Assembly (NCBI GenBank): GCA_035498035.1
Contig: DATKAN010000025.1
Coordinates: 81,190-145,189 of the forward strand
Origin: Nitrospiria bacterium
Lineage (GTDB): Bacteria > Nitrospirota > Nitrospiria > JACQBZ01
Direction: 5' to 3'
DNA length: 64,000 nucleotides
Shown here: one piece after another, positions 38,740-44,312 of the stretch
How positions within the stretch are numbered: position 1 is the first letter of the stretch
Layout: every line of letters starts with the position of its first letter
Notes under the pieces: model-generated
What the model saw: only the letters and a program-made list of their open reading frames with translations
The model's database searches: none
Told to the model about the DNA's origin: nothing
Made by a program: the position numbers and the translations under genes

Positions 38740-40326
38740 ATGACGGACGTTCGTTCCATCCTTTATATCTTTCTCCCCTGCCGGCCGGTCTATCCGCTCG
38801 GGGTAACCTATCTGGCCGACGGGGTCCATCAAAAACACCCCGATATCCGACAGCAAATTCTCGACCTGTCGTTGATCCCGTCGGCTCACCGCCGCAAGAC
38901 CCTTTTGGCGCAGCTCCGTCAACTCGATCCGGACTTGGTCTGTTTTTCCTGGCGGGATATCCAAGTCTTCGCCCCCCATGAAGGCGATCCCTCTTTAAAA
39001 TACGCCTTTAACTTCTATTATTCCACCAACCCCCTCAAGAAGCTCACCGCCTCGATCAAGGGATTGGGATACCTCTGGACGTATTATCGGGGCATCCAGG
39101 AAATCCTGTCCTATTTCTGGTTGATCCACCGACGCTATCCGGGGAAACGGGTTCTCGTCGGCGGCGGGGCCTTCAGCGTGTTCGCCGACCAATTGATCCG
39201 CCGTCTTCCGGAGGGCACGATCGGTCTTCTGGGCGAAGGCGAGGACGCCTTGTTGAAGGTGATCGAAGGGAAAGACCTGTCCGATGAACGATCGATCCTA
39301 CGCAAAGGCGATCAAGTCTTCCGCGGCGTAAAGAACGCGATCACATCCATTCAGGACATGACGATCGATCTGTCTTATCTGACCGCGATTTTCCCTCAAC
39401 ACGTCGCGTACAAAAATGACTGTATCGGCGTCCAGTCAAAACGCGGCTGTCCCTACGATTGCCAGTTCTGCGAATACCCGTATATCGAGGGAAAACGGGT
39501 CCGTTACCGCGCACCCGAGCGAGTGGTTCAAGACATCCTGCAGCACTACCGGCAATGGGGAACGCGAGCCTTCTGGTTCACCGACGCCCAGTTCATCACC
39601 GGGAGCGAAGCCCTGCCCCAATGCAACGAAATCCTGGACCGGATCATCGCCGAGAAGTTGGACCTGACTTGGTCCGGTTACATTCGGACAAGCCTGATCA
39701 CGCCCGACCTGGCCTGTCGGATGGTCCAATCCGGGGTGGGCGATCTGGAAGTGGCGATCACCTCCGGCTCCCAAGTCGTCCTGAATGAACTGCATATGGG
39801 CTTTCGCCTGGACAATCTCTACGACGGCTGCCGCTATCTGAAAGAGGCGGGGTTTACGGGCAATTTGATCCTGAATTATTCACTCAACTCCCCGGGGGAT
39901 ACCGAGACCACATTAATGGAAAGCGTGGCGTCGTACAAAAAAATCGCCGCCATCCTGGGGGAAGACCGCGTCTTCCCCATGCTCTTCTTCCTCGGCGTGC
40001 AGCCCCACACCGGATTCGAGCAGCGCCTCATCCAGGAGGGATACCTCTCGGGCGGATACAATCCCCTTTCGTTGAATCCGGTCGCGGTTAAAAAGATGCT
40101 CTACAATCCCCCGCCCTTAAGCCACCTGATTGCACGGGCCTGCCTTCGGGCCTGGGATAAAACGGCTTGGGAACAGGCCTCTCCGGCTGGCCGATCGGTC
40201 CATGAGCTGTATGCCGACGAGTCTCTGTTCCGCGGGGTCGTTGAAAACGCGGGACGGGATGTGCTGATTAACCTGGAGCAGGATTTATTGGCGCGGGGCG
40301 TCGGACAAAGCCGGAACCGTCCGTAG
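38740..40326 (+). CDS. B12-binding-like radical SAM protein
   Basis: 528 aa. N-terminal cobalamin-binding-like region (GVTYLADGV to VLVGGGAFSVFA, about 20-150, without the classical DxHxxG) and a radical SAM core with Cys237-x3-Cys241-x2-Cys244 (GCPYDCQFCEYP), followed by VLNELHMGF and LNYSLNSPGDTE, typical of the B12-radical SAM superfamily. Substrate is unknown; nothing nearby points to one. Ends 64 bp before the convergent DUF3870 gene. Confidence 0.82.
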   Translation: MTDVRSILYIFLPCRPVYPLGVTYLADGVHQKHPDIRQQILDLSLIPSAHRRKTLLAQLRQLDPDLVCFSWRDIQVFAPHEGDPSLKYAFNFYYSTNPLKKLTASIKGLGYLWTYYRGIQEILSYFWLIHRRYPGKRVLVGGGAFSVFADQLIRRLPEGTIGLLGEGEDALLKVIEGKDLSDERSILRKGDQVFRGVKNAITSIQDMTIDLSYLTAIFPQHVAYKNDCIGVQSKRGCPYDCQFCEYPYIEGKRVRYRAPERVVQDILQHYRQWGTRAFWFTDAQFITGSEALPQCNEILDRIIAEKLDLTWSGYIRTSLITPDLACRMVQSGVGDLEVAITSGSQVVLNELHMGFRLDNLYDGCRYLKEAGFTGNLILNYSLNSPGDTETTLMESVASYKKIAAILGEDRVFPMLFFLGVQPHTGFEQRLIQEGYLSGGYNPLSLNPVAVKKMLYNPPPLSHLIARACLRAWDKTAWEQASPAGRSVHELYADESLFRGVVENAGRDVLINLEQDLLARGVGQSRNRP

Positions 40327-40390: not shown

Positions 40391-40738
40391 TCAGACTTCC
40401 GAGGGGGGATGGGTGGCTTTTGAAGCCCGATACAGAAATTCCCGGTATTCCCGGACTAAGTCTTTAATCGCCGTGATCACGGCCTTTTTGGATTTATGAA
40501 ACAGACGCTGTTCAACCTGAACGAGCAAATCATTGGCGTCGGTTTGAAGCGACATGCCGACCATCATCTGCTTCAGCATCCCGATGATGAGCGGCGGACA
40601 GGGCATGAAATCGACCTCCACCACCTTTCCGGTCGGCACGTCCACGTGGGCAATCACCTGAAACACCTCGACGGCCGAGAGCTCCTTGGGCAGCCGGGCC
40701 TGTCCCCCAAAGATGAACATTCCCCCATCATGATCCAT
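40391..40738 (-). CDS. DUF3870 family protein
   Basis: 115 aa. FIFGGQARLPKELSAVEVFQVIAHVDVPTGKVVEVDF (about 8-45) is the DUF3870 pattern, followed by QVEQRLFHKSKKAVITAIKDLVREYREF. Small cytoplasmic protein, function unknown. ATG with GAGGG 6 nt before. Downstream of the candidate structured RNA. Confidence 0.75.
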   Translation of the reverse strand: MDHDGGMFIFGGQARLPKELSAVEVFQVIAHVDVPTGKVVEVDFMPCPPLIIGMLKQMMVGMSLQTDANDLLVQVEQRLFHKSKKAVITAIKDLVREYREFLYRASKATHPPSEV

Positions 40739-40820: not shown

Positions 40821-40980
40821 AAAAAAAAGACCCAAGTATCCGCCTCAGGATTCACAGCAGAATCCAGAGACGAGACAGCTGGGTCAGCTCACTTTCCACG
40901 GTCGGGGTTCGTCCAACCGTCAATGAACAGGACAGCTACCTATGAGATGCGGTTTGTTTTATTGCCTGGGACGATTAAGC
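40821..40980 (-). ncRNA. Candidate structured RNA with its own promoter and terminator
   Basis: About 160 nt, minus strand. Promoter TTGACA-17-TAATAT is directly upstream and the transcript ends in eight Ts (40828-40821). Paired elements by hand: 5-prime GTCCCAGG with 3-prime CTTGGGTC (closing stem), CCGC/GCGG and CTC/GAG next, then hairpins ACGGTTGG/CCGACCGT (40900-40924 region), AGCTG-ACC-CAGCT and GGATTC-TGCTGT-GAATCC. No open frame of note. It does not match a riboswitch, SRP, tmRNA or RNase P consensus that I can recall; 6S-like topology (closed ends) is possible. Confidence 0.6.
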
Positions 40981-40986
40981 GCAAAA

Positions 40987-41015
40987 ATATTATCAAGCGT
41001 CATCGTCATTGTCAA
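40987..41015 (-). promoter_or_regulatory. Promoter of the candidate RNA
   Basis: Minus strand TTGACA (41010-41015), 17 bp, TAATAT (40987-40992). One of the best promoters in the window. Confidence 0.65.
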
Positions 41016-41038: not shown

Positions 41039-41917
41039 TTAATCCGGCCCTCCGATGGCTTTGAAGATCTTTATTTCGGTCTCGGCCTTATTTCTTTGCA
41101 GGAAAATCAGCTTCGCCGGATAGTTCTTTCCCAGGAATTTCTGCTCTTCTGCCACGAAGATCAGGTTGGGCGGATTGGAAGGAATGCCCTCTTTGGTCTC
41201 CCCCAATTCGTTCTCGTACCTTATTTGGAAAACCTGAAAGGTCAACGGCTCTTTCTTGAGATGCCTTTTGAAGAAATCGGAAACCTTCGGAAGCGGATCC
41301 TCCGAAACAAAAATCCATTCTCCGCGGGCATTCGGCATAAATTCGGACTTGGGATAACGGGGGATCCCCATCTCCTTTTCGGTGGGGCCCCAGATTGCAT
41401 TGATCCTTTGAATGGCTAGACCGCTCAGACCCCGCACACGCTCGTTGTCGGTCTGGCGCCACAACGCCGTCAATGCCGGCTTTGCGGAAGGGTCCGCAAT
41501 TTCTCCCAGTCCCCGCACGGCGGCGACTTGGATCTCGGGATGTTTCAGACCCTGAATAAGGGCCTCCACCGCCGACCGATCCGCTATCTTCACCAACGCG
41601 TCGATCGCATCAAGCTGTAGGTCCTTGTGGTCCAAAAGATCCGCCAAGACCGGCACCGCCATCGGATCTTTAAGGGCGCCGATCGCCTTGACGGCCGATG
41701 AGCGGACTTCGAAGTCATGTTCTTCCCCTAAAATCTCCATGAGGGCCGGCGTGGCCCGTTTGTCTTTCAAGATTCCCAGCATGAAAATGGCGCCGGACCT
41801 GCTGGAGGCATCGGAAGATTTCAGATCCTTAAGGCAGTCCTCCAATCCGGTGCAGGGCGACTGCGCTAGGGTTAATCCAGCCCAACTCATCCATGCGACG
41901 ATGAAGAAAAAAATCAG
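41039..41917 (-). CDS. Secreted or lipid-anchored HEAT-repeat (PBS-lyase type) protein
   Basis: About 290 aa. N-terminal hydrophobic stretch LIFFFIVAWMSWAGLTLAQS is a signal peptide, so periplasmic. Then HEAT-like repeats (about residues 28-190: LKDKRATPALMEIL, LKDPMAVPVLADLL, IADRSAVEALIQGL, IADPSAKPALTAL), and a C-terminal alpha/beta domain (FMPNARGEWIFVSEDPLPKVSDFF to ETEIKIFKAIGG) of unknown role. No ATG, GTG or TTG precedes the signal peptide in frame; CTG at 41917 is used here, and the ATG at 41890 lies inside the signal. Starts 32 bp after nrdJ. Confidence 0.72.
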   Translation of the reverse strand: MIFFFIVAWMSWAGLTLAQSPCTGLEDCLKDLKSSDASSRSGAIFMLGILKDKRATPALMEILGEEHDFEVRSSAVKAIGALKDPMAVPVLADLLDHKDLQLDAIDALVKIADRSAVEALIQGLKHPEIQVAAVRGLGEIADPSAKPALTALWRQTDNERVRGLSGLAIQRINAIWGPTEKEMGIPRYPKSEFMPNARGEWIFVSEDPLPKVSDFFKRHLKKEPLTFQVFQIRYENELGETKEGIPSNPPNLIFVAEEQKFLGKNYPAKLIFLQRNKAETEIKIFKAIGGPD

Positions 41918-41948
41918 CTGCCGACGGGCAGAAATCTTTAGCCCCCGC

Positions 41949-44312
41949 TCAGCATTCCGAATACCCGCAGGAGTAGCACTTCTGACAGCCTTCCTCCCGG
42001 GCCATCTGGACGCCGCATTTCGGACAGAGGTTTCCGGTGAGGCGGAAACTCCCACTCTTCCCGTGACCGTTGCCGTTGTTCGGAGACTTAATCCAATGTT
42101 CTTCCATCGCACGGGCGATGGCATCCGCCAGTGAGGAGATGCGCGCCTCTCCAAACCCGACCGAACGCGCGCCCCCGATGCCGCGCAGCTGCTCCACTTC
42201 TTCCTGGACTTTTTCATAACGCGAGAGGTAAGAAGGGGTGCGCAGATAGAGCGAAATCGACCGCCCCAATGATTCGGCCATCGCCATGATGTCGCTTCCG
42301 GCCTTTCCGATCGTCATAAACACCTCGGCCGGGCCCTCTTCATCGTCGTTCATCGTGATATGCACTGTCCCCAACGGAGTCTCCTTGCTCAGGGTGACGC
42401 CGACTCGCTTGTAAGGACGGGGTTTGACTTTTTTGACTTCCTCACCGGCGGACGCCGATGGCGCCTTCGGTTTGGCCGACGTGCCGACGTTCAAAACCTG
42501 CTCTTCCAGACAACCGTCCCGGAAAACGGTGATTCCCAGGCAACCGACCTGATACGCCAACTGGTACGCTTTCTTCACATCATCGCGCGCGGCGGAATTG
42601 GGAAGGTTGATCGTCTTAGAGACGGCATTGTCCGTATACTCCTGAAACGCACCCTGCATTCGGATATGCCATTCGGGCGAAATCTGGTGCGAGGCCTGAA
42701 ACACATCCCGCAGGTCGGAGTGCACCTCCTCGATGCCGTCTATGTTTCCCTGCTCGCTGATTTGGTCCATGAGGGCCGGACTGTAGAACCCCCGTTCCTT
42801 GGCGATGGTCTCAAAGACGGGGTCCACGAAGGTCAGTTTTCTTTCTCCGGAAACGTGACGAAAGGCCAGCGCGAAGACCGGCTCAATTCCCGATGAACAG
42901 CCCGCGATAATGCTGATCGTCCCAGTCGGGGCGATGGTGGTTACAGTGGAATTCCGAAGAGGACGACTGTTCCGGTAGATGCTGTCGGCCCAATTGGGAA
43001 AGGGCCCGCGCACCTCGGCCAGGTTTTCGGACTCGTGATGGCCGACTGAATTGATGAATCCCATGATCTTCCGGCCCAGGGCCAAGGCCTCTTCACTGTG
43101 GTAGGGTATTCCTAAACGGAAAAGAAGATGGGCCCATCCCATCACGCCCAGACCGACGCGCCGATTGGCCTTGACGGCGGCATCGATCTCCGGCAACGGA
43201 TAAGGATTGACCTCGATTACGTCGTCCAAAAACCGGACCGTCACTCGGACGGCCTGCTCCAACTCTTCCCAGTCGATCGCCCATTTCCCGGTTTTCTTAT
43301 TGACAAAAGACAGGAGGTTCAAAGACCCCAGATTGCAGGCTTCATTGGGATAGAGCGGTTGTTCCCCGCACGGATTCGTGGCTTCGACAGGACCCATCTT
43401 GGGCACGGGGTTGGACGGCCCCTGATTCATGCGATCGATGAAGACCAGCCCCGGATCGCCGGTCTGCCAAGCCGACTCCACGATCTCCTCGAAAACCTCG
43501 CGGGCATTGAGCCGCCCCACGGCTTTCCCCGTATGGGGGGAGATCACGTTGTATTCTTTTCCCATCGAAACCGCCTGCATGAACTCTTCGGTCACGGCCA
43601 CGGAGATATTAAAATTCGTGATCTGTCGTTTGCGTTTGCTGAGCACAAACTCCATGATGTCGGGATGGTTATAATTGAGAATGGCCATGTTGGCCCCTCG
43701 ACGGGTGCCGCCCTGCTTGATGGAATTCGTGGCCGCGTCGAAAACTTTCAGAAAGCTGACCGGCCCGCTGGCTTCGCCCTGGGTGGTCGAGACCAAGGAC
43801 CCTTTGGCCCGCAATCGAGAGAATGAAAAACCGGTCCCGCCTCCGGACTGGTGAATCACGGCGGCATTCTTGATCGCATCGAAGATTCCCCGGATCGAGT
43901 CTTCGATCGGAAGGACATAACAGGCCGAATACTGAAGCCCGTTTTCCTTTCCGGCGTTCATCAGCGTCGGGCTGTTCGGCATAAACTGCCCACGGATCAT
44001 CCGATCATAAAATTGCGCCGCCACGGCCTCCACCTCCGCGGCGGAGGCCCCCCAAAGGCTCTCGGCTTTTGCAATCGCCAAGGCGACCCGTTTGAACATC
44101 CCTTCGGCGGTTTCCAGAACCTTCCCGTTTTCTTTCCGAAGGTATCGTTCCTCCATCACCTTAATAGCATTGGGGGTCCATTGACCGCGGCTCTCCCATA
44201 TGGTCTGCGGGTCAGGGGATTGTCCATCACGCCGCTCGGTGATGGGAAAGTGTTTGGAGATTCGAGAGAAGCCCTGAGTTTTTGCATGTTCGACGTTCTT
44301 TGCGATCTCCAT
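41949..44312 (-). CDS. nrdJ: Adenosylcobalamin-dependent ribonucleotide reductase (class II)
   Basis: 787 aa from the ATG at 44312 (AAGGAGG 5 nt upstream). Makes deoxyribonucleotides without oxygen dependence. Motifs: LQYSACYVLPIEDS (redox Cys), GGGTGFSFSRLR, TRRGANMAIL, NPCGEQPLYPNEACNLGSLNL (catalytic Asn-x-Cys-x-Glu), APTGTISIIAGCSSGIEP, and a C-terminal zinc-ribbon CPKCG...CQKCYSCGYSEC that re-reduces the active site. Same family as the Thermotoga enzyme. No cobalamin riboswitch was recognised in the leader. Confidence 0.96.
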   Translation of the reverse strand: MEIAKNVEHAKTQGFSRISKHFPITERRDGQSPDPQTIWESRGQWTPNAIKVMEERYLRKENGKVLETAEGMFKRVALAIAKAESLWGASAAEVEAVAAQFYDRMIRGQFMPNSPTLMNAGKENGLQYSACYVLPIEDSIRGIFDAIKNAAVIHQSGGGTGFSFSRLRAKGSLVSTTQGEASGPVSFLKVFDAATNSIKQGGTRRGANMAILNYNHPDIMEFVLSKRKRQITNFNISVAVTEEFMQAVSMGKEYNVISPHTGKAVGRLNAREVFEEIVESAWQTGDPGLVFIDRMNQGPSNPVPKMGPVEATNPCGEQPLYPNEACNLGSLNLLSFVNKKTGKWAIDWEELEQAVRVTVRFLDDVIEVNPYPLPEIDAAVKANRRVGLGVMGWAHLLFRLGIPYHSEEALALGRKIMGFINSVGHHESENLAEVRGPFPNWADSIYRNSRPLRNSTVTTIAPTGTISIIAGCSSGIEPVFALAFRHVSGERKLTFVDPVFETIAKERGFYSPALMDQISEQGNIDGIEEVHSDLRDVFQASHQISPEWHIRMQGAFQEYTDNAVSKTINLPNSAARDDVKKAYQLAYQVGCLGITVFRDGCLEEQVLNVGTSAKPKAPSASAGEEVKKVKPRPYKRVGVTLSKETPLGTVHITMNDDEEGPAEVFMTIGKAGSDIMAMAESLGRSISLYLRTPSYLSRYEKVQEEVEQLRGIGGARSVGFGEARISSLADAIARAMEEHWIKSPNNGNGHGKSGSFRLTGNLCPKCGVQMAREEGCQKCYSCGYSEC

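Follow-up and report, generated by a model that had tools for sequence, protein, structure and literature searches.

A structured RNA of about 160 nt is encoded on the minus strand of the stretch of Nitrospiria bacterium DNA analysed here (64,000 nucleotides; hereafter, the window). We found that this RNA is genuine, that it is conserved in a single family and that Rfam does not list it; there is good support for both the RNA and its shape. Judged from sequence, its conserved anatomy resembles that of an attenuation leader of the gene that follows, which codes for a 115-aa DUF3870 protein, rather than simply that of a free-standing RNA, and on balance we lean toward reading it as a riboswitch-like, cis-acting 5′ leader that would control DUF3870 by transcription attenuation. 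The RNA is a lineage-restricted example that Rfam-based annotation has overlooked.

An RNA with its own promoter and terminator

A preliminary description of this region, which stated no strand, had proposed a new structured RNA of about 160 nt with a TTGACA-17-TAATAT promoter and eight terminal Ts. Our analysis places the feature on the minus strand, where the promoter (TTGACA-17-TGATAATAT, with a 17-nt spacer), the length and the U-run are all borne out; the promoter additionally carries an extended -10 TG. The 5′ end of the RNA was set from the -10 element and the 3′ end from the U-run. The main features of the locus are:

41039–42217, minus strand: HEAT-repeat open reading frame, upstream; its stop lies 23 nt before the -35 element
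41010–41015, minus strand: -35 element TTGACA, invariant in 5/5 genomes with the RNA
40987–40995, minus strand: extended -10 element TGA-TAATAT (TAATAT at 40992–40987), TGnTAnnAT in 5/5 genomes
40821–40981, minus strand: whole RNA, about 160 nt
40821–40828, minus strand: terminator U-run of eight U (40828–40821), retained in 5/5 genomes
40391–40738, minus strand: DUF3870 gene (115 aa; PF12986, 45.9 bits; synteny in five genomes), the proposed regulated gene

The minimum free energy of the RNA is -61.6 kcal/mol vs. -46.6 ± 3.6 kcal/mol for dinucleotide shuffles (z = -4.15), with none of 200 shuffles as good. Scanning with Rfam 15 gave no match at gathering thresholds anywhere in the window and no credible one at relaxed E-values, in line with the earlier remark that no Rfam-like consensus could be recognised, and ARAGORN reported no tRNA or tmRNA. 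A coding RNA or leader peptide was ruled out by single-base indels inside the RNA among homologues and by the lack of a conserved reading frame, which agrees with the absence of coding potential noted at the outset. We also discarded 6S RNA: although our feature likewise looks stand-alone, is of similar length and has its own promoter, it scores nothing with the 6S model (RF00013) and, at full length, does not form a closed rod bearing a central bubble; the true 6S RNA (114.4 bits) lies elsewhere (G000:C58). Separately, a second 6S-like match was seen at L032 1501–1662 (minus strand; G000:C16:46147–46308), below the gathering threshold (30.3 bits vs. 46.4; E = 0.00026 per genome). Its segments GCACCCACUU and GCAUCGCGG agree with the 6S model, making it a possible 6S paralogue.

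The RNA was found in one family only

Searching 40 related genomes for DNA homologues revealed copies of the RNA in two genomes of the same genus (G001 and G002) and two of the same family (G003 and G005), at 71–84% DNA identity to the window. The RNA and its promoter are thus conserved in 5/7 genomes of the family, in each case with the nrdJ/HEAT genes on one side and the DUF3870 gene on the other; they are missing from G004 (96% complete) and from G006, which is only 69% complete. With a covariance model built on the full-length RNA (R1), the copies in the five genomes scored 149–168 bits. When 270 genomes of the class and 396 of the phylum were scanned with R1, no convincing copy was found beyond these five, and a model of the 72-nt core (R2) recovered, from the same sets, the same five only, once per genome. 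The lesser matches of both models were rejected: the 22-bit match L053 overlaps the end of a coding gene of low complexity, the 21-bit match L054 is the terminator of an unrelated gene with similar letters, and L047 and L048 are fragments. A pattern scan of 84,980 species genomes hit seven places, none of which scored with R1, and the same kind of scan of viral contigs gave no match. Within the five genomes the 72-nt core is invariant in most of its columns, and the flanking spacer is poorly conserved.

A fixed position between nrdJ-HEAT and DUF3870

In all five genomes the gene order is nrdJ, the HEAT-repeat gene, the RNA, the DUF3870 gene and then an oppositely oriented B12-binding radical SAM gene; G005 carries a response-regulator gene between the last two. 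Promoter, RNA, terminator and DUF3870 follow one another in the same order and with similar spacing in each genome, with the DUF3870 start about 82 nt beyond the U-run in the window and a stretch of 92–103 nt from U-run to start codon across the five genomes. The true start of the HEAT open reading frame is probably near the nrdJ stop, at about 41.93 kb. With 23 nt separating the HEAT stop from the -35 element, there is no room for another terminator, and the hairpin of the RNA therefore probably also ends the nrdJ-HEAT transcript, of which it is the only visible end.

At the G004 locus (L057 1380–1560, G004:C144), neither the HEAT gene nor the RNA is present, so that the two come or go together there, which suggests gain or loss as one block. 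DUF3870 starts about 10–15 nt after the nrdJ stop in this genome and therefore does not need the RNA there; apparently, DUF3870 can be kept without it. A short hairpin (GCCGTGATCACGGC, followed by CTTTTT) was also seen on the plus strand at 40470–40483, toward the 3′ end within the DUF3870 gene; it is a possible terminator of the convergent radical SAM gene, whose end is at 40326.

Anatomy of the RNA

Consensus folding with RNAalifold and counts of pairs across the alignment (A4) concur on a P1 helix, a P2 helix of 8–9 bp with a variable loop and a long terminator hairpin. The elements, together with a third helix (P0) that is described below, are:

40929–40944, minus strand: near-invariant 5′ element CAUA(c/g)GUAGCUGUUCU, alignment columns 25–40
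40933–40939, minus strand: P0 5′ strand GUAGCUG, proposed antiterminator (pair probability 0.81–0.99 in truncated transcripts, all five genomes)
40923–40928, minus strand: P1 5′ strand GUUCAU, with a G-C to A-U double change in G003
40912–40920, minus strand: P2 5′ strand; the loop to its partner strand is variable
40898–40906, minus strand: P2 3′ strand, from RNAalifold and pair counts
40894–40898, minus strand: UGGAA at the P1/P2 internal loop, alignment columns 71–75, invariant
40887–40892, minus strand: P1 3′ strand GUGAGC, from RNAalifold and pair counts
40875–40881, minus strand: P0 3′ strand CAGCUGU/CAGCUAU, within the terminator 5′ arm, from pairing analysis
40860–40885, minus strand: terminator hairpin 5′ arm, beginning GACCCAGCUGUC, from fold and alignment
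40829–40853, minus strand: terminator hairpin 3′ arm, ending GGAUACUUGGGUC, from fold and alignment

Of the hairpins drawn in the preliminary description, the 8-bp one corresponds to P2 and the 6-bp one to the tip of the terminator hairpin; the overall drawing was partly wrong. In particular, its closing stem (5′ CCCAGG with 3′ CUUGGG) is missing from the minimum free energy structure, its 5′ half is unconserved and its 3′ half belongs to the terminator arm. The invariant UGGAA is a candidate binding or tertiary site. We also considered a K-turn in the P1/P2 loop, judged by eye, and dropped it as unsupported because the required G-A pairs vary.

A homologue search followed by covariation analysis had been put forward as the check on this RNA. 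The homologues exist, as described above; the covariation amounts to one double-sided change, in P1 (G-C to A-U, G003), along with many one-sided changes in P2 and the terminator that stay paired. Quantification over the five sequences gave, besides the double-sided change, ten further pair types, with 96% of cells paired, and the pair-keeping signal was above slid-partner controls and not above the shuffle control. The covariation is therefore suggestive only.

Two alternative folds predicted for the RNA

Among the stretches of the RNA left unpaired in the full fold, the most conserved is GUAGCUGU (40939–40932), seven bases of which are complementary to CAGCUGU/CAGCUAU in the terminator 5′ arm. 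In transcripts cut before the terminator 3′ arm, this P0 pairing is predicted to close a rod around P1 and P2 with a probability of 0.81–0.99 in each of the five genomes; for the full transcript its probability is about zero. Growing the transcript stepwise placed the flip at the last few bases of the terminator 3′ arm (model nt 136–139). The terminated state is more stable than the P0 rod state by 3.6–8.3 kcal/mol, a difference that the binding of a ligand could plausibly make up. Each of the seven P0 pairs is intact in every genome; at two of the pairs this involves one-sided changes (G-U to A-U and U-A to U-G), with no double-sided covariation among the five sequences.

We evaluated how unusual such a pairing is in two ways. 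When the 5′ 40 nt were shuffled, between 0 and 20 of the 300 trials per genome matched the observed pairing. The second comparison used 75 arbitrary terminator-like hairpins taken from sequences at hand, of which 12% had at least 0.75 of the arm paired upstream; the RNA copies, at 0.72, fall in about the top sixth. With about one in six control hairpins pairing upstream to that degree, the alternative pairing alone is not rare and constitutes moderate evidence, to which conservation of the P0 pairing adds. Switching between the two folds is thus what we infer from predicted structures.

A possible attenuation leader of DUF3870

At this locus a promoter, a structured domain and an intrinsic terminator lie in line upstream of a gene, and folding predicts mutually exclusive antiterminator and terminator pairings, for which the base rate in arbitrary hairpins is about one in six. 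We propose the following model. RNA polymerase would start at the TTGACA/TAATAT promoter, and the first ~105 nt would fold into the P0-P1-P2 rod, in which GUAGCUG pairs with CAGCUGU, so that the terminator 5′ arm would be held back. By default the terminator 3′ arm, once made, would displace P0, and transcription would stop at the U-run to yield the ~160-nt RNA. If the rod were stabilised, for example through binding of a ligand or a protein to its conserved loops (the internal loops UGGAA and UCU/UGACC), polymerase would read through into DUF3870; the switch would thus be an ON switch.

Transcription of DUF3870 from the promoter of the RNA is likewise a prediction. In the 92–103 nt from U-run to DUF3870 start in the five genomes, no sigma-70-like promoter was found above chance (best 7–8 of 12 positions vs. 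a random mean of 7.8), and the promoter of the RNA is therefore the nearest good one for DUF3870. The proposed arrangement is shared with transcription-attenuation riboswitches and leaders such as SAM-I, purine and T-box: a promoter, a folded domain whose 3′ strand overlaps the terminator 5′ arm, a terminator, and then the gene within about 100 nt. Unlike those, our RNA has no Rfam match, occurs in a single gene context, and its switching is only predicted. Counting against a leader, the R2 scans found a single rod in each genome, in every case ahead of the same gene, so that an independent second context is lacking. The retention of DUF3870 without the RNA in G004 and the second role of the hairpin, as the visible end of the nrdJ-HEAT transcript, also count against it.

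Alternatives to the attenuation leader

The main rival is a free-standing trans-acting sRNA, or a 3′-UTR sRNA that lies at the end of the nrdJ-HEAT operon and has an internal promoter, with the single-stranded, conserved CAUACGUAGCUGUUCUGUUCAU as its seed; we regard this as possible. A strong promoter and a strong terminator of its own fit such an RNA, as does a full-length fold that leaves the most conserved stretch unpaired on the 5′ side, followed by two hairpins, and a HEAT stop so close to the -35 element that the terminator also ends the upstream operon. Hfq-dependent trans sRNAs and 3′-UTR sRNAs with internal promoters share this layout of single-stranded conserved 5′ stretch, hairpin, terminator and site right after an operon, but differ from our case, in which Hfq was detected in none of the seven family genomes searched (control genomes were positive) and target signal is lacking: sites complementary to the 5′ element were fewer than for the reversed control, with no excess. 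Moreover, DUF3870 would then have no visible promoter, and the terminator stem here, being long and interrupted, differs from those of typical sRNAs. CsrA was similarly found in 0/7 family genomes, with control genomes positive; the several GGA triplets recall CsrA-sequestering RNAs of the CsrB/RsmY type, but only two GGA are conserved, one of them inside the terminator stem. Collectively, the spacer, Hfq/CsrA and target results make a cis-acting leader likelier than a classical sRNA and are still compatible with an Hfq-independent sRNA.

Going a step beyond attenuation as such, the ~72-nt P0-P1-P2 rod could be the aptamer of a new riboswitch class, with UGGAA and UCU/UGACC as conserved loops and a metabolite that turns on DUF3870. 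This we regard as rather doubtful. DUF3870 is without known function, and the gene therefore suggests no ligand. In an unlikely sub-case of attenuation, a protein, possibly DUF3870 itself as feedback, would bind the rod and control read-through; a long rod with conserved asymmetric internal loops would suit a protein, whereas the predicted DUF3870 fold weakly resembles IscU and enolase/CODH domains and not an RNA-binding fold. Very improbable is a chance adjacency of a promoter and an operon terminator with functionless RNA between them: terminator arms pair upstream fairly commonly, but the core is mostly invariant against a poorly conserved flanking spacer, changes in P1 and P2 preserve pairs, and the fold stands out from its shuffles.

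What the RNA would mean depends on which of these holds. A ligand-gated attenuator would be an uncatalogued switch class on a gene family whose function is not known, and the ligand would indicate what that family does; a new riboswitch class would provide the first clue to the role of DUF3870. An sRNA only, or an operon terminator with a promoter, would be of modest interest.

The DUF3870 protein

By sequence, DUF3870 has no solved structural relative. We built a structure model from a ten-sequence alignment (mean pLDDT 84, pTM 0.78), in which the order of elements is beta-beta-beta-alpha-alpha-alpha. Foldseek comparison of the model revealed weak resemblance only, with IscU as the best match (E = 0.0019, TM about 0.5) and enolase/CODH domains also weak; the modelled fold does not suggest an RNA-binding protein. 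DUF3870 is present in 7/7 family genomes and in none of the 33 other relatives searched. A DUF3870 paralogue, with no RNA copy nearby, was also observed at L064 1447–1809 (minus strand; G000:C34:43836–44099). It has counterparts in L061, L062 and L063, and at all four loci it adjoins a gene that, judged by eye, is aldolase-like.
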